A stretch of DNA of 51,114 nucleotides from a virus, in the IMG/VR virus record IMGVR_UViG_3300033182_000250, positions 1 to 51,114 of that record. One strand, 5' to 3'. Positions 10,340-51,114 of the stretch are shown here, piece by piece (position 1 is the stretch's first letter; every line of letters begins with the position of its first letter). A program made the translations under genes and the position numbers. The notes beneath the pieces are model-generated. The model searched no databases and was not told the DNA's origin. It saw only the letters and a program-made list of their open reading frames with translations.

Positions 10340-10347
10340 AATAAATA
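10340..10347 (+). promoter_or_regulatory. Late promoter box for gp6
   Basis: AATAAATA in the 55-base gap between gp25 and gp6, followed by AGAGGA at 10355-10360 and the gp6 ATG at 10368. Spacing to the gene is normal for a T4-like late promoter. Confidence 0.65.
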
Positions 10348-35495: not shown

Positions 35496-36530
35496 ATGGC
35501 AGTAGCAGTAGGCGATAGCATTACAGCAGCACAATTTAATGCTTTACAATCAAGAATAGATAATATTTTAGGGATTGGAGCTCTTCAAGATGGCTACGGT
35601 CAAGCTCTGAGCAGTGCTCAAGTTACTCCGCCGTCAAGTTCTGGCGCAGGTGATGGTGATACAGTCGAAGCAGAGTTTACAAGAGCGTTATATGATGATA
35701 TGAATAAAGCATATACGCATCAAACTGGTAACGATATTTCTGGTATTTTGTTCAAAGTTAGAGATGCTGATATTATTGGTGCAGATCAAACAGGTGAAAA
35801 TTTAACATATGCGGCAGACGGTTCATATACATTTAATCAAGCGAATCCAACAACTGCTGCAAGAGGCGGATTTAATGATTACTTATCTGCAATGACTACG
35901 ATAGAAAGCGGTAAATTAAACATTGCAGCTAGTCAACAAACGTTAGCTGATGCTACTACTAATACAAGAACCACTACTTGGAATGGTACTATTGACATGG
36001 AGTTTACTGCTACCTTTACTAGTTACAATCATCGCAGACATTTTTTTAATTCTGGCGGCCAAATTCGTATAACAACTAGTATGGCATCACCATCTGGTGC
36101 AAAAGAATTAGATTGGAATACTATGTTTACTAATGTTGGTGCTATAAAATTTGCATATAACAGTACAACAGCCGGCAGCGGAACTGGTTCTGCAATAGGC
36201 GGAAATAATCTTTCTACCGACTCTCCAAAATTAACTACTACTTTTCAGCAGATTTTTACAAAGTCTGGTTCTGGAGTATATGCAGAGAACATTTATAAAG
36301 TAGAAGCAAAAGAAGATAGTGCTAATGGAACAGTTCTTAGATTTAAAGTGACATTGGCAGACAACGATACAGGTGATAGACCAGATCCAAGTCCTCCGCC
36401 ACCATATGGGGCTTTAGTAGACGAAAATGTTGCAGCAGACATTACTGTAACTATGGGTACACTTAGAGCAAGCGGAGCAAATGTTAGTGTGAATGCTCCG
36501 ACATTTGCAGTAACAAATACTTTCGAATAA
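35496..36530 (+). CDS. Virion structural protein of unknown role, fibre-associated by context
   Basis: 344 residues. The N-terminus SITAAQFNALQSRIDNILGI is helical and is followed by DGYGQALSSAQVTPP. The centre has RHFFNSGGQIRITTSMASPS and KELDWNTMFTNVGAIKFAYN, a pattern I associate with unnamed tail structural proteins in marine myoviruses. The rest is Ser/Thr/Gly-rich with a PDPSPPPP stretch near residue 300. No signal peptide, membrane segment or enzyme motif. The perfect late promoter just before it and its position at the end of the fibre genes support a virion role. It is the last gene before the hairpin at 36544-36585. Confidence 0.6.
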   Translation: MAVAVGDSITAAQFNALQSRIDNILGIGALQDGYGQALSSAQVTPPSSSGAGDGDTVEAEFTRALYDDMNKAYTHQTGNDISGILFKVRDADIIGADQTGENLTYAADGSYTFNQANPTTAARGGFNDYLSAMTTIESGKLNIAASQQTLADATTNTRTTTWNGTIDMEFTATFTSYNHRRHFFNSGGQIRITTSMASPSGAKELDWNTMFTNVGAIKFAYNSTTAGSGTGSAIGGNNLSTDSPKLTTTFQQIFTKSGSGVYAENIYKVEAKEDSANGTVLRFKVTLADNDTGDRPDPSPPPPYGALVDENVAADITVTMGTLRASGANVSVNAPTFAVTNTFE

Positions 36531-36533
36531 TAC

Positions 36534-36562
36534 TTGACATAACACTCCTAATACTATATAAT
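36534..36562 (+). promoter_or_regulatory. Perfect sigma70 promoter at the head of the accessory block
   Basis: TTGACA (36534-36539), 17-base spacer, TATAAT (36557-36562): full consensus with ideal spacing. Expected start is near 36569, within the 3' half of the hairpin that follows. It begins 3 bases after the last late structural gene. Confidence 0.92.
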
Positions 36563-36585: not shown

Positions 36586-36939
36586 ATGGATGAACGATTA
36601 CAAAAAGCATTAGACTTTTCAAACTACATGGTCACGCTAAACAACCAAAAGCGTGTTCTCAAAGAGCGTTATCGTGAGCAAACTGTTTATTATTATCAAG
36701 GCGGGCAGTTTACAGTAACAAAAGAGCTTATTACATTTGTTAGTATGCTTGTTGAGCAAGGCAATGACGAAGATGTTGTACTTGTCGACGACAATGAAAC
36801 GCCAATTATGGTAAAAGATCTAACAAACTTCCAAGCAGAATTACTAAACACTTATTTTACCGCAGCAAACGAGTATCATGCTGAGTATGAGAAATTGCGT
36901 AAAAATAGAAATGTAGAGAAATTAGTTGAATATGAGTAA
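36586..36939 (+). CDS. Small conserved-looking protein of unknown function
   Basis: 117 residues, not recognised. The sequence is largely helical and charged: DERLQKALDFSNYMVTLNNQ, then a Tyr-rich YREQTVYYYQGGQFTVTKE, a short beta part VVLVDDNETPIMVKDL, and a C-terminal helix with many Glu and Lys. No membrane segment, Cys pair or catalytic motif. AGGGG at 36575-36579 precedes the ATG by six T residues. It is the first gene read from the perfect sigma70 promoter, so early expression is likely. It ends with an 8-base overlap with the first glycosyltransferase. Confidence 0.7.
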   Translation: MDERLQKALDFSNYMVTLNNQKRVLKERYREQTVYYYQGGQFTVTKELITFVSMLVEQGNDEDVVLVDDNETPIMVKDLTNFQAELLNTYFTAANEYHAEYEKLRKNRNVEKLVEYE

Positions 36940-37819
36940 AGGCGTATTAGTTTTTGCTCGTAATAATGCTCAAATTGATTATTGTAAACAAGCAGTATTT
37001 CTAGCAAAACGTGTAAAACGATTTTTAGACCTTCCAGTTACTATTGTAACAGATAGTACAGAATTTTTATTGACTGAATATCCTAATGCGAACACGGTTT
37101 TTGATAAAATAATTTCTATCGTTTGGAAAGAAGAAGACTTAAAGGGTAATACTACATTATCTAAAACTGAATACCATGGCATGCGTACTTTTTTTGACGG
37201 TACATTAGTAGAAAAGAAACTCCAATTTAAAAATGAAACTAGAACATTAGCATATGAGCTATCTCCTTATGACGAAACACTTGTGTTAGATACAGATATT
37301 GTTATATGTAACGATGTATTTAAATATTGCTTTACTCAAGAACATGATTTTCTTATTTACGATAAATCGTACGAGTTTGTTGATCTAGATAGAGAAGGAA
37401 TTTTTGATAGAATTTCAGATTCGAGCGTCAAATTTTATTGGGCGACTTGTGTTTTTTTTAGGAAAACAGAAACTAATAAAATTTTCTTTGATTTATTGCA
37501 ACATATTCAAGAAAATTGGAAACATTACGATAGAATATTTCAAGTAAACACTCCATATTATCGAAATGACTATAGTTTTAGTATTGCTATTCATATTATG
37601 AATGGCTATCAAAAAGGAGACTTTGCTAAATCAATGCCAGGAAAATTATATTTTGCCACAGATAAAAGTATTTGTTGGGAAATTAAGGATACAAGTATTT
37701 TGATGTTACTTGAAAAAGATGGGTTTAGAGGAGAGTATACTCTTATGCGCATAAAAGGCGCAAATTTTCATGTAATGAATAAGTTTAGTTTAAATAGGTG
37801 TATTGATGAAAACGACTAA
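36932..37819 (+). CDS. GT8-like glycosyltransferase
   Basis: Probable GT-A fold glycosyltransferase of about 295 residues. GVLVFARNNAQIDYCKQAVF and LPVTIVTDST form the N-terminal nucleotide-binding part, and LSPYDETLVLDTDIVICND carries the metal-binding DxD at residues 120-122. Overall organisation resembles the next gene, so they are tandem paralogues. The donor and acceptor cannot be read. ATG at 36932 is chosen over the TTG two codons upstream; it overlaps the preceding stop (ATGAGTAA), consistent with translational coupling. Confidence 0.75.
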   Translation: MSKGVLVFARNNAQIDYCKQAVFLAKRVKRFLDLPVTIVTDSTEFLLTEYPNANTVFDKIISIVWKEEDLKGNTTLSKTEYHGMRTFFDGTLVEKKLQFKNETRTLAYELSPYDETLVLDTDIVICNDVFKYCFTQEHDFLIYDKSYEFVDLDREGIFDRISDSSVKFYWATCVFFRKTETNKIFFDLLQHIQENWKHYDRIFQVNTPYYRNDYSFSIAIHIMNGYQKGDFAKSMPGKLYFATDKSICWEIKDTSILMLLEKDGFRGEYTLMRIKGANFHVMNKFSLNRCIDEND

Positions 37820-38642
37820 TAGAGGATTTGTAATATTCGCTGATGGAACAGAATATGTAAAACAAGCATATCTGTGTGCTATGAGTTTGCTTGCTTCTAA
37901 GAATAAGTATCCTGTAAGTATTGTTACTTGTGACAATGTGCCAAAAGAATATAAATGGGTATTTCATAATATAATTGATATACCTTGGTATGAAAAAGTA
38001 GAAAGTAGATTCCAAACAGAACATCGATGGAAGATTTATCATGCAACGCCCTATGATGAAACTATCGTATTAGATAGCGATGTTCTTGTTTTACAGGATT
38101 TAGAATACTTTTGGAATTTTGCATCTAATTATGATTTATATTATCCTACTAGAGTTTTTACTTATAGACAAGAAGTAGTAACTAGTAATTATTATCGCAA
38201 GGCATTTGTTGCAAATAACCTGCCAAATGTATATAATACTTTACATTATTTTAAAAAATGCGATAAAAGTAAAGAATACTATACATGGGTAGAGCTCATT
38301 AATAATAACTGGGAACTATTTTATGGACATTTTTGTAAAGAGTATTTTCCTAAAACAGCAAGCATGGATGTTACATGTGCTATAGCTGCGAAAATTATGG
38401 ATATAGATACAGAAATGACTAACACACGACAAGACATGCCTATGATTGTGCATATGAAACCTATGATTCAAGGATGGCGTCATGTCGCTGAAAGTTGGCA
38501 GAATCGTGTTGGAGTATACCTAACAGAAAATTTAAATCTCAAAATAGGTAACCATTTACAAAATACTATTTTTCATTATACAGAAAATAATTTTGTTACA
38601 CCGGATATAATAGGAAAATATGAAAAATGTTTGATCAATTAA
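37806..38642 (+). CDS. GT8-like glycosyltransferase, second copy
   Basis: About 278 residues. GFVIFADGTEYVKQAYLCAM and YPVSIVTCDNVP parallel the N-terminus of the preceding protein; ATPYDETIVLDSDVLVLQD carries DxD at residues 90-92. A C-terminal HMKPMIQGW suggests the His often found after the donor site in GT8-type enzymes. Compared with the first copy it lacks about 30 residues before the DxD. ATG at 37806, 14 bases inside the preceding gene, is preferred over the adjoining TTG. Sugar and acceptor unknown. Confidence 0.75.
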   Translation: MKTTNRGFVIFADGTEYVKQAYLCAMSLLASKNKYPVSIVTCDNVPKEYKWVFHNIIDIPWYEKVESRFQTEHRWKIYHATPYDETIVLDSDVLVLQDLEYFWNFASNYDLYYPTRVFTYRQEVVTSNYYRKAFVANNLPNVYNTLHYFKKCDKSKEYYTWVELINNNWELFYGHFCKEYFPKTASMDVTCAIAAKIMDIDTEMTNTRQDMPMIVHMKPMIQGWRHVAESWQNRVGVYLTENLNLKIGNHLQNTIFHYTENNFVTPDIIGKYEKCLIN

Positions 38643-39202
38643 TGTATGTGAGCTTCAATAAAGACAATGGTGATATCATTAGTGTAGGAAATGAAGTTCC
38701 AGAAGAAATAAGTTATGTCACTGTTCCTTTATCTGAGGTTCTTACAATTTTAAACGGGTTAGAGCCGATGCGGAATTATGTAGTGCAGTTTAACCCTAAA
38801 ACTAAAACTTTAGAATTTGTGTCTCGATTTGAATATGTCTACGATAATTATTCAGTAAACGAATTAATATATCAGATACCAGAACAAACGATCGAAGATC
38901 CTGATGTATTGCTAATACAAGATATACCAAATACTTGTTGGAAAATTCAGATAGGCAAAGAATTTAAAAAGAATCTTAAATCAAAAGGCGCAAGTCTAAA
39001 TGCAAATATTATGTTTAGCATTACTGAAAAAAATGATCCAAACATTTTATACAAAACTCTTTTTGTAGATTTCGCAAAAGCGGTAAACGATAACTATTAC
39101 ATAATACCGTTTAGTATGCCATTTGAAACAGTAGATACTCCTATTAGTGTGTATACATCAAAAAGATTTGACACTTACCAGTTTAAAAGAATTTATGAAT
39201 AA
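38627..39202 (+). CDS. Protein of unknown function in the accessory block
   Basis: 191 residues, function not recognised. Mixed beta-rich sequence with LMYVSFNKDNGDIISVGNEV, then NYVVQFNPKTKTLEFVSRFE, DIPNTCWKIQIGKEF and a C-terminal PISVYTSKRFDTYQFKRIY. I recall similar unnamed proteins in marine T4-like phages, but cannot confirm this. No signal peptide, membrane segment or catalytic motif. It starts 16 bases inside the preceding glycosyltransferase gene and overlaps the next gene by 8 bases, so it is translated as part of the same set. Confidence 0.65.
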   Translation: MFDQLMYVSFNKDNGDIISVGNEVPEEISYVTVPLSEVLTILNGLEPMRNYVVQFNPKTKTLEFVSRFEYVYDNYSVNELIYQIPEQTIEDPDVLLIQDIPNTCWKIQIGKEFKKNLKSKGASLNANIMFSITEKNDPNILYKTLFVDFAKAVNDNYYIIPFSMPFETVDTPISVYTSKRFDTYQFKRIYE

Positions 39203-40088
39203 AATTAGAGTAGTAGACCAAGACATTATTTTCCTAAGTTACGACGAGCCTAATGCCGAAAAGAACTATGCAGATTTATGTCAAAAAGTGCCGTGGGCGA
39301 AACGTGTGCATGGAGTACATGGTTCAGATGCAGCACATAAAGCCTGTGCAGATTTAAGCGAAACAGAATACTTTGTTACTGTAGATGCTGACAATATTAT
39401 TGATCCAAAATTTCTTAATGTTGAAATAGACTTAGACGAACTAGGACTAACACCTGAACACGTATTTTCATGGTGTGGTAAAGTACACGTTAACGGACTA
39501 ATGTATGGCAATGGCGGACTGAAGCTATGGACAAGAAAGTTTGTACAAAATATGCGCACACATGAAAACTCAGTAGAAGGCGACGATAAAGGACAAGTAG
39601 AATTTTGTTTTGATGACAAGTATTATCAGTTTAACGAAAACTATAGTACAAGTTATACAAACGCAACAGCATTTCAAGCATGGAGAGCAGGATTCCGTGA
39701 AGGCGTTAAGATGTGTTTAGATCAAGGTACTAAGGTAGATGATCTACGCAAAACATGGTGGCAGAACTTTGATAGACTGCGTGTATGGTGTTCAGTAGGT
39801 GCTGACGTTGAAAACGGCGTATGGAGCATTTATGGAGCAAGAGAAGGTCTAGTAAAAACAATGCTAACTGATTGGGATCATGCAAATGTAAGAGATTTTA
39901 AATGGCTAACGCAACATTGGGAAGACAAGAGCATATCAGAAGATGAGTTAATAGAAAGCATTGTAGGATATGGTGATAGGATTAGATCAGAGCTAGGCAT
40001 TGAAGTAGCAGAACTTGATAGTAACGGCAGTCACTTCTTTAAAGCATTGTATCATAATACACCAAGAGTTATAAGAAAGCGTAAATGA
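39195..40088 (+). CDS. DxD glycosyltransferase-like protein (EPNA family, single domain)
   Basis: 297 residues from the preferred ATG. DIIFLSYDEPNAEKNYADLC, KRVHGVHGSDAAHKACADLS and YFVTVDADNIIDPKF form a GT-A-like N-terminal domain with DxD at residues 64-66. VHVNGLMYGNGGLKLW and TAFQAWRAGFREGVKMCLDQ follow. The protein at 50036 belongs to the same family and has this domain twice. The longer reading from GTG 39147 adds 16 residues unlike the family; the ATG at 39195 overlaps the preceding stop (ATGAATAA). It is likely a sugar transferase, acceptor unknown. Confidence 0.7.
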   Translation: MNKIRVVDQDIIFLSYDEPNAEKNYADLCQKVPWAKRVHGVHGSDAAHKACADLSETEYFVTVDADNIIDPKFLNVEIDLDELGLTPEHVFSWCGKVHVNGLMYGNGGLKLWTRKFVQNMRTHENSVEGDDKGQVEFCFDDKYYQFNENYSTSYTNATAFQAWRAGFREGVKMCLDQGTKVDDLRKTWWQNFDRLRVWCSVGADVENGVWSIYGAREGLVKTMLTDWDHANVRDFKWLTQHWEDKSISEDELIESIVGYGDRIRSELGIEVAELDSNGSHFFKALYHNTPRVIRKRK

Positions 40089-41464
40089 ATAACGAATTAC
40101 AAAAAATTAAAGATATAATTCCTATTACAGATGCGGCTATCAGCCCTACATTTTGTATGGCAAAATGGCATCACACTACAATTTATTTGCAAACAGGAGA
40201 AACACACAGTTGTTATCATCCTGCACCTCATAAGATTCCGTTAAATGAGCTTGTTAATAATCCTAGCGCATTACATAACACAACAGAAAAAAAACTTCAA
40301 CGTAAAGAGATGATTGAAGGAAGACAACCAGATGGTTGCAGTTATTGTTGGAAGATAGAAGCAATGGGAAAAGATTATGTTAGTGACAGGCATATTAAGA
40401 CCGCAAGTATCTATACTCCAGAACGATTAGAAGAAATAAAAAAGAATGGATTTAATTACAATGTCAACCCTGAATATATCGAAATTAGTTTCTCGAATGA
40501 ATGTAACTTTAAGTGCGGCTATTGTCACCCAAAAGCCTCAAGCAGATACTGGAACGAAATTAAAGAATACGGACCATACAGCACAAGCTCAGAACACCGA
40601 CAAGACATAGATTGGTTTAAAGTTTATCATAAAGAAGAAGAAAATCCTTATGTGAAAGCATGGTGGGATTGGTGGCCTGATGTAAGTAAAACATTAAACA
40701 TATTGCGTATTACCGGTGGCGAACCTTTAATGCATCGTAGTACCTGGGAATTATTTGAACGATTAGACAAAGAACCTAAACCGCATATTCAGATTGAATT
40801 AAACAGTAACTTAGGTGTTAAACATAGTCTTGTACAAAAACTGACTAATATAGTAAGACGTTTAAAAGAAGAAAATAAAATTCGTAGTTTTAAACTATAT
40901 ACTAGTATTGACACATGGACAAAACGTGCTGAATATGCTCGTACAGGTTTAGACATTAATTTATGGGAAAAGAACTTAGACTATTATCTAAGCAATACAG
41001 GTTGGCCTGTAACATTTATGATTACATTTAACATTTTCTCTGTTACAAGTTTTGATTCTTTGTTAGAAAAGATATTAGAATGGCGAGAAAAATATAACAG
41101 CGATGCTAACGAAACACAATGGCAACGAGTTAGATTTGATACACCGCATTTAAAAGAACCTGCAATATTTGATATGAACATTCTTCCTAAAGAGGAATTT
41201 ATGCCGTACATGCATAAACATTTACAATTTATTAAAGATAATCTTAATGATGCAGATCGTACAAAGTTTACATCATTAGAATATGAAAAATTTAAACGTG
41301 TAGTAGATTATATGCAATCTACTATGTATGATGCTAATGTACTTAAAAATGCACGGCGTAATTTTTATAACTGGTTTGCAGAATATGATAAACGTAGAAA
41401 TACTAATCTAATTAATTTTTTTCCTGAAATGAAAGAATTTTTGGAGTTATGCAGTGAAATTTGA
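40085..41464 (+). CDS. Radical SAM protein with twitch/SPASM-like Cys region (pair 1)
   Basis: 459 residues. The radical SAM 4Fe-4S motif is CNFKCGYC, Cys140/144/147, after YIEISFSNE; the SAM-binding ITGGEPL follows about 75 residues later, and LYTSIDTW fits a later strand of the barrel. Before the core there is a Cys region (FCMAKWHHTTIYLQTG, HSCYHP, CSYCWKIEA) that resembles an auxiliary cluster or twitch-type segment placed at the N-terminus. A Trp-rich insert (AWWDWWPD) lies before GGEP. It starts with ATGA overlap and ends 11 bases inside the next gene. Reaction unknown; context suggests a sugar or peptide modification. Confidence 0.85.
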   Translation: MNNELQKIKDIIPITDAAISPTFCMAKWHHTTIYLQTGETHSCYHPAPHKIPLNELVNNPSALHNTTEKKLQRKEMIEGRQPDGCSYCWKIEAMGKDYVSDRHIKTASIYTPERLEEIKKNGFNYNVNPEYIEISFSNECNFKCGYCHPKASSRYWNEIKEYGPYSTSSEHRQDIDWFKVYHKEEENPYVKAWWDWWPDVSKTLNILRITGGEPLMHRSTWELFERLDKEPKPHIQIELNSNLGVKHSLVQKLTNIVRRLKEENKIRSFKLYTSIDTWTKRAEYARTGLDINLWEKNLDYYLSNTGWPVTFMITFNIFSVTSFDSLLEKILEWREKYNSDANETQWQRVRFDTPHLKEPAIFDMNILPKEEFMPYMHKHLQFIKDNLNDADRTKFTSLEYEKFKRVVDYMQSTMYDANVLKNARRNFYNWFAEYDKRRNTNLINFFPEMKEFLELCSEI

Positions 41465-42380
41465 AGAGTATAATATAGATCGATCTATAGGAATATTAGA
41501 AGATGCAATCTCAGTTAAGATTAATAATGAAAATTTAAAACCAAACTGGGTAGAGCATCCTGCTGAATATACAGAATTTTATATTAATCGAAATAAAAAA
41601 AATTTACTTGTTGTAATCGGAGAAAGTTGGACATACGGAGAGACGCTTAGAGGTATAGCAACAGGAATTCGACAGTATAATTTTTCAGCACAATTAAGAT
41701 ATACAATTGGATCTAGAATGGCAACGGCGTTAGACTCAGATTTATATCAATATGCAGTGCCAGGTAATTGTAACTTTTATATGTTCACAGAGCTAGAAAG
41801 AATTTTAGAATATGTTTCTACACTTGGCTACGAGAAAATTTATGTTTCTTTACAAATGACCGAACCTTCTAGAGAAACGCCTATATTACAAGCAGTAGAA
41901 AATGCGAAACATTCTCTAATGGATATTATTAACACTAAAGAAAAAATCTTAATTCAAGATTGGCTAGAAAAATACGATGATGTCTTTTTTGATCAGTATG
42001 ATCAAATAATATCAAAATATAATAATTTAGAACCGATTCTTTGGAAAAATTTTTGTAGAATTAACTCTAAAAACGTAAATAGAAAATTTAAAATTATTGG
42101 TACTACTTGGATAGAACACTCATCTAGAATGTTAGCCAGAAATCTTAAAGCACCTTCTTTTTATGCAGTTGGATGGGTTCATCATATAATGAATGAAACT
42201 CCTAGATTTAAACATATCATCATAGATAATGAATATCTTATGAAAGAGTTAGACTTAATAGAAGCATCAAATCAATTTATTAAAGCAAATCCTTTGCATA
42301 GCCATCATCCAAATGAATTTGGACATTTGTTATGGGCTCAATTTTTATTAAGAAAGTCGGAATGGATTAATGATATCTAA
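41454..42380 (+). CDS. SGNH hydrolase-like protein (pair 1)
   Basis: 308 residues. LLVVIGESWTYGE (Ser58) fits block I of SGNH/GDSL hydrolases with Glu in place of Asp, YAVPGNCNFYMF may hold the Gly/Asn blocks, and HSHHPNEFGHLLWA near residue 290 fits the catalytic His block. Such enzymes remove or transfer acyl groups on sugars; this activity is inferred from motifs. The start is GTG with GGAG 7 bases upstream, inside the end of the radical SAM gene. It overlaps the next gene by 11 bases. No signal peptide, so a cytoplasmic role is likely. Confidence 0.7.
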   Translation: MKFEEYNIDRSIGILEDAISVKINNENLKPNWVEHPAEYTEFYINRNKKNLLVVIGESWTYGETLRGIATGIRQYNFSAQLRYTIGSRMATALDSDLYQYAVPGNCNFYMFTELERILEYVSTLGYEKIYVSLQMTEPSRETPILQAVENAKHSLMDIINTKEKILIQDWLEKYDDVFFDQYDQIISKYNNLEPILWKNFCRINSKNVNRKFKIIGTTWIEHSSRMLARNLKAPSFYAVGWVHHIMNETPRFKHIIIDNEYLMKELDLIEASNQFIKANPLHSHHPNEFGHLLWAQFLLRKSEWINDI

Positions 42381-43554
42381 TACTTTTTGTATTTTGCCTT
42401 GGATACATTTATATGCAAATCCTGATGGAAATGTTCTTCCTTGTTGTGTAGGTGATTATAGACTGCCGCTTGGCAATGTACAAAAAAATACTATTAAAGA
42501 AGTATGGAATAGCGATAAGTTTAAAGACATGCGTTTAAATATGCTCGCAGGAAAAAAATGTAACGAGTGTGTTTCTTGTTATAACGACGAAGAAGCAAAT
42601 AATCGTAGTTTTAGGCAATCGTCCAACAAGCAATATTCAGAATTCTTATCAATAGTCGATGACACTAATGATGACGGATCATTAGATAATATAACATTAA
42701 AGTATCTTGATATAAGATGGAGTAATATTTGTAATTTTAAATGTAGGAGTTGTAGCGGAACATATAGTTCAAGTTTAGCAAAAGAAGAAGCAAGAGATAA
42801 AATTTATATTTTTGCTGGTGGCAACTCTAACGATTTTTTATATAAACAAATTGAACCATACTTGTCCAGCATTAACGAAATTTATTTTGCAGGTGGCGAA
42901 CCGTTATTAATGGATAAACATTATGAAATTCTTAATACGTTAATCGATACAAATAATACAGATATAAAAATTCGTTATAATACAAATTTAAGTTCTTTAA
43001 AATATAAAGATATTGTAGTTACGGATCTGTGGAAAGAGTTTTCAAATTTACATGTAAGTGTAAGTTTAGATAGTTGGAGTGAAAGAGCAGAATATATTAG
43101 AGAAGGAACAGATTGGAATAGAATAATATCTAATCTTAGATTTATTAAACAAGAATGCCCACAGATTCATATTGGAATCGCATCTGTTATTTCTGTATTT
43201 AATGTGTATACTCTTCCTGATTTTATCGAATACATGAATGATAATGATTTAATTGATAAAGATATGTATGCAGTTATGTATTCATTAATTAATCCTAACT
43301 TTTATAGTTTCAATATTTTTCCTAATTTGTTAAAACAACAAATAATTGACAAATTAACAAAAGTTAATTATAATACACAGTTACAGACTCAAATTAATAA
43401 TGTTATAAGTCTTTTGAAAAAATCACATTTTGATCCTGCTTTGCAAGTAGAATTTAAAAAGAATACAGAGCATTTTGACTCTATTAGAAATAAAAGTTTT
43501 ATAAAAACATTTCCAGAGTTAAAAAATTTTTATGAAGGAATACAGATTAAATGA
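42370..43554 (+). CDS. Radical SAM protein with twitch/SPASM-like Cys region (pair 2)
   Basis: 394 residues. The N-terminus FCILPWIHLYANPDGNVLPC followed by a second Cys, then KKCNECVSC, is a cluster-binding segment typical of twitch/SPASM radical SAM proteins. The core motif is CNFKCRSC, Cys121/125/128, preceded by YLDIRWSN; YFAGGEPLL is the SAM-binding motif, and VSLDSWSERAEYIREG parallels TSIDTWTKRAEYARTG of the first radical SAM protein. The two are paralogues. It begins 11 bases inside the SGNH gene and ends with ATGA overlap with the next. A perfect sigma70-like promoter lies in its 3' end. Confidence 0.85.
   Translation: MISNTFCILPWIHLYANPDGNVLPCCVGDYRLPLGNVQKNTIKEVWNSDKFKDMRLNMLAGKKCNECVSCYNDEEANNRSFRQSSNKQYSEFLSIVDDTNDDGSLDNITLKYLDIRWSNICNFKCRSCSGTYSSSLAKEEARDKIYIFAGGNSNDFLYKQIEPYLSSINEIYFAGGEPLLMDKHYEILNTLIDTNNTDIKIRYNTNLSSLKYKDIVVTDLWKEFSNLHVSVSLDSWSERAEYIREGTDWNRIISNLRFIKQECPQIHIGIASVISVFNVYTLPDFIEYMNDNDLIDKDMYAVMYSLINPNFYSFNIFPNLLKQQIIDKLTKVNYNTQLQTQINNVISLLKKSHFDPALQVEFKKNTEHFDSIRNKSFIKTFPELKNFYEGIQIK
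43346..43374 (+). promoter_or_regulatory. Internal sigma70-consensus promoter
   Basis: TTGACA (43346-43351), 17-base spacer, TATAAT (43369-43374), inside the 3' end of the second radical SAM gene and about 170 bases before the second SGNH gene. Full consensus, but in AT-rich coding sequence. Confidence 0.6.
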
Positions 43555-44294
43555 ATTTAAAAAAATATAAAAGGTTTTTTGCATTTGGTTGCAGTATGAC
43601 ACAGTATGCTTGGCCTACCTGGGCTGACTTAATTGCACAAGAGATACCAGAATCGTACAATCTTGGAAGATGCGGAGCAGGAAATTTATACATAGCCTGT
43701 CAGGTAGCGGAAGCAAATCTTCGTTATAACTTTAATAATGATGATTTAGTAATGATTATGTGGACATCTGTAGCAAGAGAAGACAGGTATACTCAGAGAA
43801 ATGGCTGGATAACTCCTGGAAATATCTATACGCAAGATGTTTACAGCGATAAATTTGTTAAGAAGTTTTCTGATAATGCTGGATATTTTTTACGAGATAT
43901 GAATCTAATCACTCTTACTAAAGGATTATTAGATAATTTGAAAATTGATTACTATATGATGAGCATGGATACGTTTGTTACAAAAGAAGATTTGTTGTTA
44001 GAAAAAATTACGGAAATAAAAAATCATTATCAAGATACATTTAATTGTATTTTACCTGATCTACTGACATTAGGGTTAAATGGAACGTGGCCGCAGCATC
44101 CTATATCAAAGATCGGAGGTCAATCAGCAGACTATCATCCGAGCCCAGCACAACATTTTGGTTATTTAAATAAACTTTTTCCTATAAAGTGGTCACTTAA
44201 CACATTAGAATTTTTAAAAAATGAACAACATAAGATGGAACAATATAGAGATTTTGACAAAATGATTATCGAAAATCCAAAAAATATTTTATGA
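43551..44294 (+). CDS. SGNH hydrolase-like protein (pair 2)
   Basis: 247 residues. FFAFGCSMTQYAWPTWADLI (Ser15) fits block I with Cys replacing Asp, NLGRCGAGNLYIA gives the Gly and Asn of blocks II/III, VMIMWTS is the following strand, and DYHPSPAQHFGYL near residue 195 gives the DxxH-like final block. The blocks are clearer than in the first SGNH protein, and the two proteins are otherwise quite different. It starts with ATGA overlap with the radical SAM gene and ends the same way into the next gene. Acyl-hydrolase or acyltransferase activity on a sugar is inferred. Confidence 0.75.
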   Translation: MNLKKYKRFFAFGCSMTQYAWPTWADLIAQEIPESYNLGRCGAGNLYIACQVAEANLRYNFNNDDLVMIMWTSVAREDRYTQRNGWITPGNIYTQDVYSDKFVKKFSDNAGYFLRDMNLITLTKGLLDNLKIDYYMMSMDTFVTKEDLLLEKITEIKNHYQDTFNCILPDLLTLGLNGTWPQHPISKIGGQSADYHPSPAQHFGYLNKLFPIKWSLNTLEFLKNEQHKMEQYRDFDKMIIENPKNIL

Positions 44295-45469
44295 AAATTC
44301 TTAATCAAAAAATTCCTCAAATTAATACATACGATCCAAATAATCCACAGATAACATTAGGGGACAACCATACAGCAGGAATATTGGCATTACAAGAAGA
44401 TCCTAAGTTTGATTTTGATTTTTGGTATTGTTTATTTTCTGATGCAAAGAGTTTTAAATTTTATAAAATTTCTGCATTAATAGATCATAAAATCTTGCGT
44501 AAAATACAAAAGAAGAACGCATACTTAGTTCTTGACAATACGCTAGAACCATTTTTAGATGCAATCGATTCAATATATAAAAATATTGTTCTTGAAGAAA
44601 ATATTCCATCGTCGCAAGTTATATTATTAACAAATATGTATGACGCTAAAGAATATAGTGATCGAGTTGCTAAACAATTAGGTATAAAAAGTATTAGAAT
44701 TTTTTGGTATACTGTGTTTGAACAAGACTTGCACTTTGCATCTTTATATACAACTTATGCAAATGGTAATTTACCTAAGACACTTCAAGTAAAAGAATAT
44801 CCAAAAGCATATTTAAATTTAAATCGCCGATGGAGGTTACACAGACCATTTCTAACAACTTTGTTACACGGGCGCAATCTTTTAGACAAAGGTTACGTAA
44901 GTTTAGGTCCGTGCGACGATAAAGACAGTTGGGATTATAAGTGGCGTGAACTGCAACATTATTTTAGAGATGATGAAAATATGCTAAAAATATTAGAGTC
45001 ATATTCATCTGTTCAAGATTTACCGCCAATGTATCTTGATACCAACGAGTTACATATTAATCGTGCAGAGTCTACTATTGACACTAATGTTTATTACGAA
45101 AATAGTTATTTTAGTGTAGTAAGCGAAACAACATACTTTCAAAAAGAATGGTTTTATTCTGCAAGATTTTTAAGTGAAAAAGCATTTAAAGTTATTGCTA
45201 TGCAACATCCTTTCATTCTTGTTAGTGTGCCTAACAGTTTAGAAATTTATCGCAAGATGGGCTACAAAACGTTTGACAAAATCATAAACGAAAGTTATGA
45301 CTTAGAACATGATGACGGGAAGCGTATGTTAATGATTGCAGATGAAATCGAAAGACTGTCTAATCTTAAAGGTCAAGAATTAGAAAAATTTATCTTGACA
45401 GCAAAAGATATTTGCCAATATAATTATAATGTTTTAACATCTAAGAAACAGTTTATTACGGAATTATAA
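44291..45469 (+). CDS. Unrecognised family, glycosyltransferase-like C-terminus (copy 1)
   Basis: 392 residues, family not named with confidence. The C-terminal half has YFSVVSETTYFQKEW, then FLSEKAFKVIAMQHPFILVS, EIYRKMGYKTFDKIINESYD and a C-terminal helical part. The SEK(A/T)F(K/R)xI stretch recalls the donor-site motif of GT10-like and other GT-B transferases, which is only a tentative link. LNLNRRWRLHRPFLTTLL in the middle matches SRLWRPHRALASFMLWH of the minus-strand protein at 47508, so both are one family. ATGA start overlap; its stop shares one base with the next ATG. A sigma70-type promoter for the following gene lies in its end. Confidence 0.6.
   Translation: MKILNQKIPQINTYDPNNPQITLGDNHTAGILALQEDPKFDFDFWYCLFSDAKSFKFYKISALIDHKILRKIQKKNAYLVLDNTLEPFLDAIDSIYKNIVLEENIPSSQVILLTNMYDAKEYSDRVAKQLGIKSIRIFWYTVFEQDLHFASLYTTYANGNLPKTLQVKEYPKAYLNLNRRWRLHRPFLTTLLHGRNLLDKGYVSLGPCDDKDSWDYKWRELQHYFRDDENMLKILESYSSVQDLPPMYLDTNELHINRAESTIDTNVYYENSYFSVVSETTYFQKEWFYSARFLSEKAFKVIAMQHPFILVSVPNSLEIYRKMGYKTFDKIINESYDLEHDDGKRMLMIADEIERLSNLKGQELEKFILTAKDICQYNYNVLTSKKQFITEL
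45395..45424 (+). promoter_or_regulatory. Internal sigma70-consensus promoter before the B12-type radical SAM gene
   Basis: TTGACA (45395-45400), 18-base spacer, TATAAT (45419-45424), 45 bases before the ATG at 45469. Both boxes are perfect and the distance to the gene is ordinary. Confidence 0.7.
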
Positions 45470-47505
45470 TGCCTTACCAAGAAGGAATGGACAAGCACTT
45501 AGTTACGCTTGCAGCTATTCAAAAATATGCAAAGCCTGTAGAGCAGAAAAATGTCACAACAGTGAATATTGAATATGCTACACGTAAATCAAAGTTAATG
45601 CTAGTTATTCTTCCTCAGTGGGCAGCCGAGTTTCCTCCATTTAACTTATGTCGCTTGTCCGCTGTTGCAAAACAAGCAGGATACGAAAGTCGTGTACTTG
45701 ATGGAAATATTAGAGCTTATCGGTATTACGAAAAACATGTAGCAGATAAACTTGATTATAAGTTGTGGGACCCAACGACAATTTGGCGGTGGACTCCAGG
45801 TAATTACGAAGAAATACATAAGCATATTGAACCTGTAATGTATGAATTACTTGAAGAAATTATAGAGTATAATCCAACACTGTTAGGTTTTACAATTTAT
45901 CAAATGAATGAAGAGCCTACAAAGTGGATGATACAAGAAGTTAAGAAGCGGTTGCCTAAGGTGCAAATTGCAGTAGGAGGACCAAATGTTCAAAAGGGTT
46001 ATTTCATAAAGAAGCCTTATTATGATTATGTAGTTGCAGGTGAAGGAGAAGAAGCAATTTTACAAATACTTGATCAAGTTGAATTTAACATAGAACACCC
46101 TAATCAAATTTATATCACACAACCAGAAAATCAAAGGCTTAATCTTAATAAGTTTCCTATGCCTGATTATGACCACATTAATTTTAATGATTATAAAGTT
46201 TCAAATGGTGTTACTACAGAACTTAGTCGAGGATGTATTGCAAAATGTACATTTTGTGAAGAAACACACTTTTGGAAATACAGACAACGCATGGCAGTCG
46301 ATGCTCTTGCAGAAGTAGAATATTTGTATAATGAAAAAGGTACAAGAGTATTTTGGTTTGTTGATAGTCTTGTAAACGGTAATTTAAATGAGCTACGAGG
46401 ATTTGCAAACGGTGTTATAGCAAAAGGACTTGATATTAAGTGGACTGGTTATGCTCGCAACGACGGACGCATGGATAAAGAGTATATGCAAGACCTTGCC
46501 GATAGCGGCTGTGTATATTTAAATTATGGCTGCGAATCTGCAAGTCAAAAAGTGTTAGATGACATGGATAAAAAAGTTACTGTTAAAGAAATGGAACAGA
46601 ACTTTAAAGACGGCGCCGCTGTCGGAATCCAAGCAGCAACTAACTGGATTGTAGCATTTCCTACAGAAGAATATCAGGACTATGCAGATACTTTAGCATT
46701 TTTGTGGCGTAATCGTAATACGAATATTAACAATATGAGTACCGGTATAGGCTTTGGCCAAGGTCCTGAAACTATTACAGGACAGAATCCAGATAAGTTT
46801 AATTTGTCGTATCAAAAGTATCTTGGACATTGGATTACTAAAGACTTTAAAATGGGCGGGACACACACTCATATGCGTGTTAAACTTATCAGTATGTATC
46901 TTGACCAAATTATTGGTGATAGAAAAATTAGTTACCCAGTAAGACCTAATTTACGTAAGTATCATTATGATATCAATTATACTGATCCGACTATACAAAA
47001 TGACATTGAGTATGAAAAGTTTGATTATAATATAATCAAACCAGATATTAATCCGTATGCAGACGGACTTGTAAATGAAATATGGCCATGGTTACGTATG
47101 ATATGGAGAACCCGTGGTAGTTACGAAACAACAGTTCGCTTTAGACCTGAGTTAGACGCACATGAATTCGGAAATGCATACGGCACAGGAAAATATACTG
47201 CAACCTTTAAGTTTAAAATTGATGTTAACGGAAATTGGAATGCGGACTTTGCATGGAACTTTAAACAAGAATGGGAACATAATCCTTACATTGAAGAACA
47301 TAGACAAGGTCCGTTTTTTGCACAAGACTTTAGTAAGATGGATAGTAATCCTGCTATACGTGCGAGAAAACTATCTAAACCTAGCTGGGGCATTGACGGA
47401 AGATCAAATGATGATTATAGCAAACTATTTGCCGAAGAAGATAAATTAAACAAAGAAGTTGACTGGTCTTTCAATTACGAATGGAAGGGAACAGGCAAAT
47501 GGTAA
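45469..47505 (+). CDS. B12-binding-type radical SAM protein
   Basis: 678 residues. Residues 40-210 resemble a cobalamin-binding Rossmann domain (LMLVILPQWAAEFPPFNLCR, LSAVAKQAGYESRVLDGN, VQIAVGGPNVQKG, YDYVVAGEGEEA), without an obvious DxHxxG motif, as in many such enzymes. The radical SAM motif is RGCIAKCTFC with Cys256/260/263, then WFVDSLVNGN, ARNDGRM and YGCESASQKVLDDM typical of the class. The C-terminal 200 residues, rich in aromatic and charged residues, are not recognised. Family members carry out methylations and other C-C bond chemistry; the substrate here is unknown. It has its own promoter-like sequence at 45395-45424, and converges on the next gene with 2 bases between stops. Confidence 0.85.
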   Translation: MPYQEGMDKHLVTLAAIQKYAKPVEQKNVTTVNIEYATRKSKLMLVILPQWAAEFPPFNLCRLSAVAKQAGYESRVLDGNIRAYRYYEKHVADKLDYKLWDPTTIWRWTPGNYEEIHKHIEPVMYELLEEIIEYNPTLLGFTIYQMNEEPTKWMIQEVKKRLPKVQIAVGGPNVQKGYFIKKPYYDYVVAGEGEEAILQILDQVEFNIEHPNQIYITQPENQRLNLNKFPMPDYDHINFNDYKVSNGVTTELSRGCIAKCTFCEETHFWKYRQRMAVDALAEVEYLYNEKGTRVFWFVDSLVNGNLNELRGFANGVIAKGLDIKWTGYARNDGRMDKEYMQDLADSGCVYLNYGCESASQKVLDDMDKKVTVKEMEQNFKDGAAVGIQAATNWIVAFPTEEYQDYADTLAFLWRNRNTNINNMSTGIGFGQGPETITGQNPDKFNLSYQKYLGHWITKDFKMGGTHTHMRVKLISMYLDQIIGDRKISYPVRPNLRKYHYDINYTDPTIQNDIEYEKFDYNIIKPDINPYADGLVNEIWPWLRMIWRTRGSYETTVRFRPELDAHEFGNAYGTGKYTATFKFKIDVNGNWNADFAWNFKQEWEHNPYIEEHRQGPFFAQDFSKMDSNPAIRARKLSKPSWGIDGRSNDDYSKLFAEEDKLNKEVDWSFNYEWKGTGKW

Positions 47506-47507
47506 AT

Positions 47508-48731
47508 TTATTTTTGTTGTAAGGTTAACAGAAAGTTATATAACGAATTTTTAGACAATGCAGAGGCAGTCATAACGTTGAAATTATGTATTAAAAGCTC
47601 TTTGTTTTTAAATCTCCAATCTATCCGTTCAGACTTACTCATAGCAGATAATTCGTTAGTAACACGAATTACTTCTTTTAATAGTTTTCGATAACGCATA
47701 GTTGTATCTTCTTCAAAGTCAAAACTTAAATCAAACCATTCGTCATAAAGTTTGTATCCTAATTCTTTTAAGTAATGATTACAACCAGGCTGACCAAAAA
47801 TAACAAACGGTTGAAAATACCCAATTGGTCTAAATGTTTTTTCACTGTAAAACATGCTAGTTTTATCTCGATCATCTGCTTGAGTTTCGTTTACTATTTG
47901 AAATATTGTTTGAGCATGTATATGACTATATGGAAATTCGCTAGTAGCCCAATTATTATTAAAATCTGTACGATCAACGACTAACGGTAATTTTTCTCTC
48001 CAATCCATTACTTGTTTATCAGTATAATCAGTTAAACCAAAGTTTTCTCTCCATTTAGCAGGATTTTCTGCAGGAACGATATTTTGACTTATTAGCATCC
48101 TATCTTTTATTTCACTATGCCATAACATAAAAGAAGCTAACGCTCGATGTGGCCGCCACAGTCGACTTAGGCTAGACGCCATTTTAGTTGTGTGGTGTTC
48201 TGTACAGTCTGATTTTACTTTAAAAAATTCTTTTTCTGCATTAACTTTTCCTCGAGCATCGTCATTTGTAACTACGCTTTCAAACGCAGGGAATGTAAAG
48301 ACATTTATTGGATCTACACTATTTTCTTTACAATACTGTGCCAAATTGTCGTTGTCTCTATGATTTGCAGATACATATATAATCTTTGACGGAGATACGT
48401 TGTATTTTTTGCAATTAAAATAAAGCATGTCAAAGAATGGAAACTCTTTAACAGGGCTAAATCCTTCAGTACTGTAATCGAATATAAAGAATGCTTTCCC
48501 TCCGCATAATCTTTTAAAATATTGAGGACGAATAAATCTAAATATATCAGTGGTAGGAGTCCAATTAGGATATCTTGCTAACCCATGAATAAAAATAGAT
48601 CTTGACAATTTTTTATATTTTTCTATATTTGAACTATACGTGTTACGTAGAAGATTCAAAAATACAGTATTTGAAAAATTTTCTATGTGGCCGTTGTTAT
48701 TGGAAAGAGAATTGCTCGGAATGTCTAACAT
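47508..48731 (-). CDS. Unrecognised family, glycosyltransferase-like C-terminus (copy 2, inverted)
   Basis: 407 residues on the minus strand. The C-terminal part FYSEKTFRPIGYFQPFVIFG, YLKELGYKLYDEWFDLSFDF and the middle LSRLWRPHRALASFML parallel the plus-strand protein at 44291. The N-terminal part (FFIFDYSTEGFSPVKEFPFF, KIIYVSANHRDNDNLAQYCK) is fuller here. Divergence is high at the protein level. The start has no visible Shine-Dalgarno site. A perfect minus-strand TATAAATA lies 29 bases upstream, so unlike the plus-strand genes around it this copy may be transcribed late. Function tentatively sugar transfer. Confidence 0.6.
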   Translation of the reverse strand: MLDIPSNSLSNNNGHIENFSNTVFLNLLRNTYSSNIEKYKKLSRSIFIHGLARYPNWTPTTDIFRFIRPQYFKRLCGGKAFFIFDYSTEGFSPVKEFPFFDMLYFNCKKYNVSPSKIIYVSANHRDNDNLAQYCKENSVDPINVFTFPAFESVVTNDDARGKVNAEKEFFKVKSDCTEHHTTKMASSLSRLWRPHRALASFMLWHSEIKDRMLISQNIVPAENPAKWRENFGLTDYTDKQVMDWREKLPLVVDRTDFNNNWATSEFPYSHIHAQTIFQIVNETQADDRDKTSMFYSEKTFRPIGYFQPFVIFGQPGCNHYLKELGYKLYDEWFDLSFDFEEDTTMRYRKLLKEVIRVTNELSAMSKSERIDWRFKNKELLIHNFNVMTASALSKNSLYNFLLTLQQK

Positions 48732-48745
48732 AAAAAAAATAAACC

Positions 48746-48753
48746 ATTAAATA
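48746..48753 (+). promoter_or_regulatory. Possible late box for the nucleotide-sugar dehydrogenase
   Basis: ATTAAATA, one base off NATAAATA, before AGGAGA (48767-48772) and the ATG at 48778. It forms an inverted repeat (TAAATA, six bases, TATTTA) with the minus-strand late box. Confidence 0.35.
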
Positions 48754-48759
48754 CGCATA

Positions 48760-48767
48760 TATTTATA
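48760..48767 (-). promoter_or_regulatory. Late promoter box on the minus strand
   Basis: TATAAATA on the minus strand, exact T4 late consensus, 29 bases before the start of the minus-strand gene at 48731. Its last base overlaps the ribosome site of the divergent plus-strand gene. Confidence 0.6.
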
Positions 48768-48777
48768 GGAGACAAAC

Positions 48778-50013
48778 ATGAACATTGGATTTATTGGAGT
48801 AGGCAAACTTGGAATGCCATGTGCAGAAGCAGTTGCGCAAAAAGGACATACAGTAGAAGGATATGACGTTGCACAAGTTAATAGTGACTATATTAATATA
48901 GTCGATTCTATTGAAAAAGTTGTAAAAGACAAGGACATCGTGTTTATTGCTGTGCCAACTCCTCACGATCCGGACTATGACGGAAATGCGCCTACGGCAT
49001 ATCTTCCACCAAAAGATTTTTCTTACGATATAGTTAAAAAAGTTCTTACAGAAGCAAACAAGTATATGAACAAAAATCAGTTACTTGTGTTGATTAGTAC
49101 AGTTCTTCCAGGTACAACTCGGAGACAATTTGTACAATTAGTTGACAATACAAGATTTGTGTATAATCCTTACTTGATTGCAATGGGTTCAGTTGCATGG
49201 GATATGGTAAATCCAGAAATGATAATGATTGGTACTGAAGATGGAACTGAAACTGGTGATGCGCATCAACTTGTAGAATTCTACAAAACTGTAATGGAAA
49301 ATGATCCACGTTATGTTATTGGTACTTGGGACGAATGCGAATGTATTAAGGTCTTCTATAACACATTTATATCAACTAAGATTAGTTTAGTTAACATGGT
49401 ACAAGACGTAGCAGAGCGTCAAGGTAACATTAATGTTGATGTTGTAACTAAAGCACTTGCTGAAAGTACAATGCGCATTATGGGCAAGCAGTATATGACT
49501 GCTGGCATGGGCGACGGCGGTGCGTGTCATCCACGTGATAATATTGCATTACGGTATCTAGCTGATGAGTTAAATCTTGGGTATGATTTATTTGATGCTA
49601 TTATGAATGCTAGAGAAATACAAGCAGAAAATCTTGCTAAAGAATTAGTACGGCATGCAGAAGAAAATGAATATCCAATTTATATACACGGTAAAGCATA
49701 TAAACCAAATGTTCCATATTTAGACGGTAGTTATAGTTTACTTGTAGGGTATTACTGTGAAGAGTTAGGATATCCTGTAACATATATTGATCCTTGTACA
49801 GGCGATGATGTACAACCAGAAGATCCAGGAGTATTTTTATTAGCACATTCTGCTGAAATTACGTATGAATATACCGGCAAAAAGCAGCACGATACATTAT
49901 ACTGCGTTATTCCGCCAAATAGTGTAGTCGTAGATCCGTGGCGTAAGTTTGATTCTAGTGTGAGTAAAGTAATTCATTATGGAAATACTAGAAATAGGAC
50001 TAGACATCGTTAA
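48778..50013 (+). CDS. UDP-glucose/GDP-mannose dehydrogenase family protein
   Basis: Probable NAD-dependent nucleotide-sugar 6-dehydrogenase making a uronic-acid-type donor. 411 residues. The NAD-binding GVGKLG lies at residues 7-12, VFIAVPTPHDPD and LISTVLPGTTRRQF follow, the FYNTFISTKISLVN helix carries the conserved Asn and Lys, and GGACHPRDN holds the catalytic Cys250 (family usual GGSCFPKD, so Lys is replaced by Arg). The C-terminal HGKAYKPNVPYLDGS matches the family's third domain. AGGAGA lies 5 bases before the ATG. It is placed next to glycosyltransferase-like genes, which fits donor-sugar supply. Confidence 0.88.
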   Translation: MNIGFIGVGKLGMPCAEAVAQKGHTVEGYDVAQVNSDYINIVDSIEKVVKDKDIVFIAVPTPHDPDYDGNAPTAYLPPKDFSYDIVKKVLTEANKYMNKNQLLVLISTVLPGTTRRQFVQLVDNTRFVYNPYLIAMGSVAWDMVNPEMIMIGTEDGTETGDAHQLVEFYKTVMENDPRYVIGTWDECECIKVFYNTFISTKISLVNMVQDVAERQGNINVDVVTKALAESTMRIMGKQYMTAGMGDGGACHPRDNIALRYLADELNLGYDLFDAIMNAREIQAENLAKELVRHAEENEYPIYIHGKAYKPNVPYLDGSYSLLVGYYCEELGYPVTYIDPCTGDDVQPEDPGVFLLAHSAEITYEYTGKKQHDTLYCVIPPNSVVVDPWRKFDSSVSKVIHYGNTRNRTRHR

Positions 50014-50035
50014 TAAATGATGCTATATTATAATA

Positions 50036-51079
50036 ATGTATGATATAGTATTCTTAGGTTCTGATACTGATACAGAATATAAAAGATTAAAGGTTAAATT
50101 TCCTACGTTAAAGCGAGCTGATTCTCTTGAACGTGCTCGCAAGTTAGCCTTCACAAAATTTTTCTGGATAGTTTGGAATGACATTGTTGTTAACGACGAG
50201 TTTGATTTTTCGTATAAAGTTTCTGAATGGGATGAAGAATACATACATGTTTTTAAAAATGGAGCACATTATAACGGTGTGTGTTTAGTTCCTAAGAAAC
50301 GAAAAATAGCAGACAAGGAATTTAAATATAGGTTCTTTGTTAATAGAAAAGAAATTGATGTATTAGCAAGTAATCCTAGGTTAATAGAATCTAAGTTTGA
50401 TATAACATTTATAAGTTATCAAGAACCTAATGCAGATAAAAATTGGAATATTTTAAGATCTCGTTTCCCACAAGCAATTAGAATAGAAAATGTAAAAGGT
50501 ATACATCAAGCACACATTGAAGCGGCAAAGTTGTGTAGCACTGAAATGTTTTGGGTAGTTGATGGCGATGCAGTTATACTCGACGATTTTAGTTTCGATT
50601 ATAGCGATCCTGAGAAATTTACAGTACATGTTTGGAGAAGCCGCAACCCAATAAATGACTTAGAATATGGGTACGGTGGTGTTAAATTATTACCTACGCA
50701 AATGACTTTAGATATGGATGTAACTACTCCAGATATGACAACAAGTATTTCGAAAAAATTTGTATCAGTTCCAAAAGTTTCGAATATTACAGAATTTAAC
50801 ACAGATCCGTTTAATACATGGAAATCGGCATTTAGAGAATGCGTTAAATTATCGAGTAAAACAATAGAAGGACAGATAAATGAGGAAACGGAGCGTCGAT
50901 TAAAAGTATGGACAACAATAGGCATAGATCGCCAGTTTGGAAATTTCGCAATTAAAGGCGCATTAGCTGGAACGAAGTTTGGCCATGCTAATAAAGATGA
51001 TCCTAATCAGTTGTTTTTTATAAATGATTATGATTGGTTGCATGAACAGTATTTAAAGGATAATCAATGTACGGAATAG
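50036..51079 (+). CDS. Tandem-domain glycosyltransferase-like protein (EPNA family)
   Basis: 347 residues. The second domain (residues 120-250) has DITFISYQEPNADKNWNILR, VKGIHQAHIEAAKLC and FWVVDGDAVILDDF with DxD at 176-178, matching the single-domain protein at 39195. The first 115 residues repeat the same pattern (DIVFLGSDTDTEYKRLKVKF, SLERARKLAFTKFFWIVWND), but DGD is replaced by Asn48-Asp-Ile, so that copy has probably lost metal binding. The C-terminal FNTWKSAFRECVKLSS parallels FQAWRAGFREGVKMC of the other protein. No clear ribosome site. The next gene begins 13 bases before its stop. Confidence 0.7.
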   Translation: MYDIVFLGSDTDTEYKRLKVKFPTLKRADSLERARKLAFTKFFWIVWNDIVVNDEFDFSYKVSEWDEEYIHVFKNGAHYNGVCLVPKKRKIADKEFKYRFFVNRKEIDVLASNPRLIESKFDITFISYQEPNADKNWNILRSRFPQAIRIENVKGIHQAHIEAAKLCSTEMFWVVDGDAVILDDFSFDYSDPEKFTVHVWRSRNPINDLEYGYGGVKLLPTQMTLDMDVTTPDMTTSISKKFVSVPKVSNITEFNTDPFNTWKSAFRECVKLSSKTIEGQINEETERRLKVWTTIGIDRQFGNFAIKGALAGTKFGHANKDDPNQLFFINDYDWLHEQYLKDNQCTE

Positions 51080-51114
51080 TAGGATACGGGTTTGTTGGCA
51101 GAGCAACACGAAAA
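51067..51114 (+). CDS. Second nucleotide-sugar dehydrogenase, N-terminus only (cut by window edge)
   Basis: 16 codons up to the right edge, reading MYGIVGYGFVGRATRK. GYGFVGRAT is the NAD-binding opening of the UDP-glucose/GDP-mannose dehydrogenase family. It starts with a 13-base overlap with the preceding gene. Too short for more than a family-level call. Confidence 0.55.
   Translation, partial: MYGIVGYGFVGRATRK

Follow-up and report, generated by a model that had tools for sequence, protein, structure and literature searches.

A conserved candidate sugar cassette with radical SAM enzymes, adjacent to the fibre genes of a probable T4-like phage

The IMG/VR virus record IMGVR_UViG_3300033182_000250 is 51,114 bases long, and the whole of it is what we call the window. 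Its right-hand part, positions 36586 to 51114, holds a block of 14 mostly overlapping genes, here g1 to g14 (Table 1), and we are highly confident that this block is a sugar cassette. An initial annotation of the DNA had described it as a sugar-modification system, a view well supported both by the gene families and by their conserved neighbourhood. From g1 through g11 all neighbouring genes share 1-17 bases, in keeping with the earlier remark that the genes are mostly coupled; g12 is convergent with g11, and g13 and g14 then follow on the + strand. The enzyme set consists of two glycogenin-like and two other glycosyltransferases of the GT-A type, two radical S-adenosylmethionine (SAM) enzymes with a twitch domain and one of the B12 type, two SGNH-like proteins, two predicted GT-B transferases and one uridine diphosphate (UDP)-glucose dehydrogenase. 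The remaining g1 and g4 have no assigned function and were absent from the initial annotation's tally; a profile search with g4 returned no solved-structure relative.

Table 1. Genes, promoters and motifs in and beside the cassette (window coordinates; aa, amino acids; ORF, open reading frame).
Feature	Position	Strand	Remarks
g1, 117 aa, conserved first cassette gene, no assigned function	36586..36939	+	
g2, GT8/glycogenin-like GT-A transferase with DxD	36926..37819	+	paralogue of g3; glycogenin profile match
g3, GT8/glycogenin-like GT-A transferase with DxD	37803..38642	+	paralogue of g2; weak PF11051
g4, 191 aa, no assigned function	38627..39202	+	sits between GT8 and the g5/g14-type transferase in 19 loci
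g5, GT-A-like transferase	39195..40088	+	paralogue of g14; ATG at 39195 likely, ORF open from 39147
g6, N-terminal-twitch radical SAM enzyme	40085..41464	+	NF033640; CxxxCxxC invariant
g7, SGNH-like esterase/acyltransferase candidate	41454..42380	+	invariant GESWxYGE, PGNCN, HHPN
g8, N-terminal-twitch radical SAM enzyme	42370..43554	+	NF033640; BtrN twitch match
g9, SGNH-like esterase/acyltransferase candidate	43551..44294	+	conserved FGCSxT, GxGN, DxHP
g10, predicted GT-B transferase	44291..45469	+	paralogue of g12
g11, B12-binding radical SAM enzyme, C-methyltransferase-like	45469..47505	+	PF02310 + PF04055
g12, predicted GT-B transferase	47508..48731	-	AlphaFold model + Foldseek
g13, UDP-glucose dehydrogenase family	48778..50013	+	PF00984/PF03721; phrog_9148
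g14, GT-A-like transferase	50036..51079	+	AlphaFold model + Foldseek
Another Rossmann-type gene, first 16 codons, stopped by the record end	51067..51114	+	MYGIVGYGFVGRATRK
Fibre/adhesin-like gene just before the cassette, probable acceptor	35496..36530	+	comes after three tail-fibre/collar-like genes
Perfect sigma70 promoter upstream of g1	36534..36562	+	12/12, spacer 17
Perfect sigma70 promoter within g8, upstream of g9	43346..43374	+	
Perfect sigma70 promoter within g10, upstream of g11	45395..45424	+	
Late-promoter motif TATAAATA, 36 bases upstream of g12	48760..48767	-	

The four transferase-like genes with a DxD motif reported earlier form two paralogous GT-A pairs, g2/g3 and g5/g14. The g2/g3 profile matches glycogenin in its N-terminal half (E 1e-7) and the DxD is invariant, so that the pair qualifies as GT8. 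The proteins g5 and g14 are 29% identical (E 3e-23); an AlphaFold model of g14 (pLDDT 89.5, pTM 0.68) resembled, in Foldseek, GT-A enzymes such as chondroitin polymerase, with a best E of 3e-6 and low TM-scores. In two related loci this family also matches very long ORFs of up to ~7.5 kb (L032 14571-22040, L040 16204-21072). The unrecognised transferase-like family seen by the initial annotation in two copies is borne out as well: g10 and g12 belong to one family (22% identity, E 5e-15) that the libraries used did not recognise. From its AlphaFold model (pLDDT 90.9) we predict this family to be a GT-B glycosyltransferase; in Foldseek, g12 aligned with GT-B enzymes, trehalose-6-phosphate synthases among them (E 2.7e-5, probability 1.0, TM-score only 0.38), the low TM-score perhaps being due to a differing orientation of the two domains. 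Most viral structural relatives of g12 are uncharacterised and come from uncultured Caudovirales phages; one of the relatives is fused to a UDP-glucose dehydrogenase. Profile searches of solved structures with g10/g12 and with g5/g14 gave nothing usable.

All three radical SAM genes reported earlier stand. For g6 and g8, the N_Twi_rSAM model NF033640 gives E 8e-92 (308 bits) and E 1.5e-113 (380 bits), respectively, against a curated cut-off of 170 bits, and the CxxxCxxC and N-terminal twitch cysteines are invariant columns; the profile of the g8 family finds, with its N-terminal twitch part, BtrN, a dehydrogenase of an aminoglycoside pathway. The third enzyme, g11, combines the B12-binding domain PF02310 with the radical SAM domain PF04055. 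One could suppose that these enzymes mature a peptide, be it a ribosomally synthesized and post-translationally modified peptide (RiPP) or the side chains of a fibre, with the sugar genes as bystanders. Peptide maturation is a common role of Twitch/SPASM enzymes, and the model on which g11 scores highest is the RiPP C-methyltransferase model TIGR03975 (E 4e-30), though far below that model's cut-off; the constant association with sugar enzymes speaks against the idea, which we regard as the least likely of all those considered here. A RiPP as such was rejected, since the overlaps from g1 to g11 leave no precursor-sized gap. N_Twi_rSAM genes are also numerous elsewhere: contigs of Bdellovibrionota, including L094 and L095, carry many of them, in places ~9 in a cluster, and sugar genes are mostly lacking there; two contigs of Bdellovibrionota metagenome-assembled genomes (MAGs) form the sister group of the phage g6 clade; and the record of L037 (G011, 76.8 kb) has ~20 such matches in a single viral contig.

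In g7 and g9, called SGNH hydrolases by the initial annotation, the Ser, Gly, Asn and His blocks of the SGNH type are all four invariant; the fold itself found no match in Pfam, PHROG, NCBIfam or PDB sequences, and solved-structure profiles gave nothing usable. The earlier count of two nucleotide-sugar dehydrogenases holds for one complete gene, g13, while the second consists of the 16 residues MYGIVGYGFVGRATRK at the record end. Both PF03721 (the NAD domain) and PF00984 (the central domain) score above cut-off in g13, phrog_9148 matches with E 8e-99, and the catalytic Cys motif GGACHPRD aligns with GGSCFPKD; the C-terminal UDP-binding domain PF03720 reaches 18.9 bits against a cut-off of 30. 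In three relatives (L004 2372-4892, L005 6059-8579, L006 7251-9771) the dehydrogenase gene is interrupted near residue 250 by ~1.3 kb holding a 283-aa ORF that resembles phage endonuclease I, and in L005 no Rfam intron was found there.

Scans with g12 and g11 found 85 loci among viral contigs, and the viral relatives of g11 number at least 80. Co-occurrence was counted within the available stretch of the 54 loci, one of them the window, that are left when g11 is made non-redundant at 90%; since loci were picked by g11 or g12 and many are truncated, these counts are lower bounds and are uninformative on phages that lack g11. Twitch radical SAM genes were found in 42/54 loci, g10/g12-type genes in 50/54, GT-A genes in 42/54, SGNH-type genes in 51/54 and UDP-glucose dehydrogenase in 29/54, and at least four of these five enzyme groups lie near g11 in 43 of the 54. 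The neighbourhood search proposed with the initial annotation thus shows that the genes are not scattered singly. Order is kept too: with a gap of no more than 10 bases, the g8- and g7-type genes are adjacent in 40 loci, the g5/g14-type transferase and the g6-type gene in 34, and the g6- and g8-type genes in 32. Among 50,697 isolate phages, tblastn with g11, g12 and g14 and megablast with the whole block gave no matches, and no bacterial relative of g11 was found.

The place of the cassette is fixed as well. In all relatives with flanking sequence, a same-strand gene of ~300-345 aa, or a fragment of one, precedes g1, and it is fibre- or adhesin-like in all of them except possibly L145; the same fibre-then-cassette arrangement is seen in phage-like contigs that had been placed in the bins of bacterial MAGs (L093, L115, L118, L128, L143-L145). 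In the window, the fibre/adhesin-like gene at this place had no library match. Genes in the left part of the window specify an intein-bearing T4-type recombination subunit and a late sigma factor, and the baseplate, tail and fibre genes are found there too. Because its baseplate wedge protein is closest to those of jumbo phages, e.g. Phosso, Atu_ph07, SCTP-2 and PA5oct (33-37% identity), the source, an uncultivated aquatic phage, is a probable jumbo T4-like phage; and because the record is classed as linear, it is probably a fragment. Further features of this part are the gp46-like recombination protein at 3-2333 (-), whose intein, with a LAGLIDADG domain, sits in the Walker A motif, and a virion structural ORF of 5187 aa at 13811-29374 (+; phrog_10938), which adjoins the fibre genes upstream of the cassette. 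An Rfam search of the window and of L005 gave no matches.

The consensus sigma70 promoters noted earlier are real outliers: three perfect TTGACA/TATAAT promoters were observed, all in the block, where 0.15 would be expected across the whole window. The late motif NATAAATA does not occur on the + strand of the block, and all five + strand copies in the window precede structural genes; late-like motifs of this type lie 27-36 bases before gene starts, including those at 10340, 29370, 33930 and 35460 (+) and 48767 (-), and TATAAATA, which precedes g12, is also found 36 bases upstream of the fibre/adhesin-like gene. The early expression deduced from this pattern is partly supported. Among relatives, genes with a perfect sigma70 site before them also include fibre genes and DNA ligase-like and QueE-like ones, whereas a late motif stands before g1 in two and before the dehydrogenase in seven. 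The sugar genes may thus be expressed before virions are made, which fits either acceptor, and the promoters do not decide between envelope and virion as the target.

This bears on the main rival explanation, which the initial annotation had preferred, namely that the cassette modifies the host envelope: soluble transferases, working at the inner membrane face, would use lipid-linked precursors of O-antigen or capsule as acceptors, the host would export the product, and superinfection would be blocked. UDP-glucuronate often serves as a precursor of envelope sugars, and the three sigma70 promoters together with the lack of a + strand late motif fit early expression. It is also the published reading of comparable pelagimyophage clusters (PMC7029224) and of cyanophage lipopolysaccharide (LPS) clusters (PMC3037559). 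Against it, the flippase PF01943 was found in 0/35 related records of up to 364 kb (control genomes: 13/14 positive) and the initiating lipid-carrier transferase PF02397 in 1/35 (controls: 9/14 positive); no membrane segments were predicted in any cassette family, and the cassette has a fixed place after the fibre genes. These findings weaken the preference for the envelope, which we hold to be possible but on the whole unlikely.

Relatives carry partner genes that widen the chemistry. An amidinotransferase is present in 39/85 loci, with the catalytic D/H/C motifs in 35/39, and its best solved match is the StrB-type inosamine-phosphate amidinotransferase of streptomycin biosynthesis (1bwd, E 6.5e-58), which makes inosamine-phosphate a candidate substrate. 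It usually lies near g11, a GT-B gene and a 196-residue DegT-like protein (36/39 loci); the DegT-like proteins of ~196 residues, seen in 37 loci (e.g. L042 12156-12746), keep the pyridoxal phosphate lysine region and are about half the normal length. Other recurrent families are carbamoyltransferases, epimerases and additional SGNH-like proteins. In the window there is no amidinotransferase/DegT pair, and g12 stands alone between g11 and g13. The cultured Synechococcus phage S-SCSM2R (PQ898602; L154 9296-12963) has a mini-DegT gene, a radical SAM gene, transferases and the inosamine amidinotransferase in one operon. Its DegT-like protein (58%) and amidinotransferase (69%) resemble those of the relatives' module, whereas the stretch has no g11, g6/g8 or g10/g12 homologues, save a 2-oxoglutarate (2OG)-Fe(II) oxygenase; a long g12-like GT-B ORF (L067 13699-15519) has an extra part that this oxygenase matches, which suggests a fusion in that ORF.

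Such genes bring to mind a soluble small molecule, for example aminocyclitol- or aminoglycoside-like, that is released or used inside the infected cell. The StrB-type amidinotransferase, the DegT-type enzyme and the carbamoyltransferase of the relatives would suit it, as would the twitch profile that resembles BtrN, and radical SAM enzymes of the B12 type are characteristic of pathways for natural products. We nevertheless consider it improbable: transferases are many, no cyclitol synthase, exporter or resistance gene was recognised among the recurrent families, the cassette follows fibre genes, and the window itself is without the amidinotransferase/DegT pair. Hypermodification of phage DNA bases with a complex sugar seems more improbable still; phage transferases can glycosylate DNA (PMC7029224), but TET/JBP enzymes were found in 0/35 records, where no positive control matched either, and the genes are again placed after fibre genes.

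We favour, with some reserve, the explanation that the cassette builds a glycan from sugars modified by radical chemistry and that this glycan is attached most likely to the fibre encoded just upstream. Enzymes of the UDP-glucose dehydrogenase family make UDP-glucuronic acid. In the pathway that we infer, including its acceptor, its individual reactions and the order of its steps, g13 would supply this precursor, and the GT-A and GT-B transferases would assemble a short glycan in the cytoplasm from nucleotide sugars, most likely on the newly made fibre or adhesin. The twitch radical SAM enzymes would carry out oxidation or epimerisation at carbons of the sugar, with BtrN and its aminoglycoside pathway as the precedent, g11 would C-methylate, and the SGNH-like proteins would attach or take off acyl groups; relatives would add amino, guanidino and carbamoyl groups onto the same sugar. 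A fibre acceptor is favoured because the cassette follows fibre genes and lacks membrane or lipid-carrier enzymes. A further reason is phage XacN1, in which proteomics showed at least two virion glycoproteins and whose authors name it alongside Atu_ph07 and SCTP-2 (PMC5852040); both of the latter are among the closest baseplate relatives of the window.

Several points weigh against this explanation. The evidence for the fibre as acceptor is indirect; the fibre region of T4-like genomes is generally plastic, so that fibre adjacency may reflect insertion hot spots; and twitch domains occur in peptide-modifying enzymes too. The GT-B similarity of g12 is remote, and that of g14 to GT-A enzymes more so, its TM-scores being even below 0.38, while g7 and g9 are SGNH candidates by their motifs. 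The sigma70 promoters fit expression preceding virion assembly, and the authors of the comparable pelagimyophage clusters read them as O-antigen modification (PMC7029224). Going further, we speculate that a widespread lineage of uncultivated aquatic jumbo phages follows an aminoglycoside logic and displays on its own tail fibres, as a glycan, an antibiotic-like, radical-SAM-tailored aminosugar that many members also guanidinylate and carbamoylate, perhaps for host binding or defence evasion; we offer this extended form as a doubtful one.

Sugar clusters of phages have been noted for years, and no assigned product or acceptor was found for them in the literature searched. The cassette stands out by its conserved core order, its fixed place by the fibre genes and enzymes that predict radical oxidation and C-methylation, with guanidinylation in relatives. 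A glycan on virions would mean that the phage has a protein-glycosylation pathway of its own making for use in host recognition, and one on the host would mean superinfection control; the question is testable, as the cultured S-SCSM2R carries part of the relatives' module.

The suggestion that the block matches no known T4 pathway was too strong, in view of the published sugar clusters of pelagimyophages and cyanophages. The host recognition cluster (HRC) of pelagimyophages likewise has GT8 transferase and UDP-glucose 6-dehydrogenase genes and radical SAM cassettes beside tail fibres in the structural region (PMC7029224). It is defined as non-syntenic and lying between VrlC and gp14, whereas the order of the core of our cassette is conserved across many contigs and only the periphery varies; HRC phages are pelagiphages, whereas the closest baseplate relatives of the window are jumbo phages; and neither SGNH, GT-B and B12 radical SAM proteins nor the amidinotransferase module figure in the available part of its description. 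The cassette works like such a cluster, yet we do not class it as one, because its core is syntenic and its position relative to gp14 lies beyond the record. The LPS clusters of the cyanophages P-SSM2, S-SSM7 and S-SM2 (PMC3037559), and of Bellamy, are alike in having sugar-nucleotide, transferase and carbamoyltransferase genes. Bellamy has in such a cluster a UDP-glucose dehydrogenase 60% identical to g13, the only window family in the region examined; the published cyanophage clusters lie near hli03 or phoH (PMC3037559), whereas the window cassette follows fibres. The uncultivated marine T4-like phage TARA_ERS488813_N000010 is similarly rich in radical SAM genes, with 12 of them, and is discussed in terms of Fe-S metabolism; the available part of its description mentions no sugar cassette (PMC5332604). 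The Vibrio phages KVP40 and K566 have several N_Twi_rSAM-like genes, but these are 20-25% identical to g8 and come without sugar genes. No paper describing this enzyme set was found in the literature searched. Similar but simpler sugar clusters of marine phages, and radical SAM cassettes in such phages, are thus known already (PMC7029224, PMC5332604), while this combination of enzymes, the conservation of their order and the relatives' guanidinylation module appear new within that literature.

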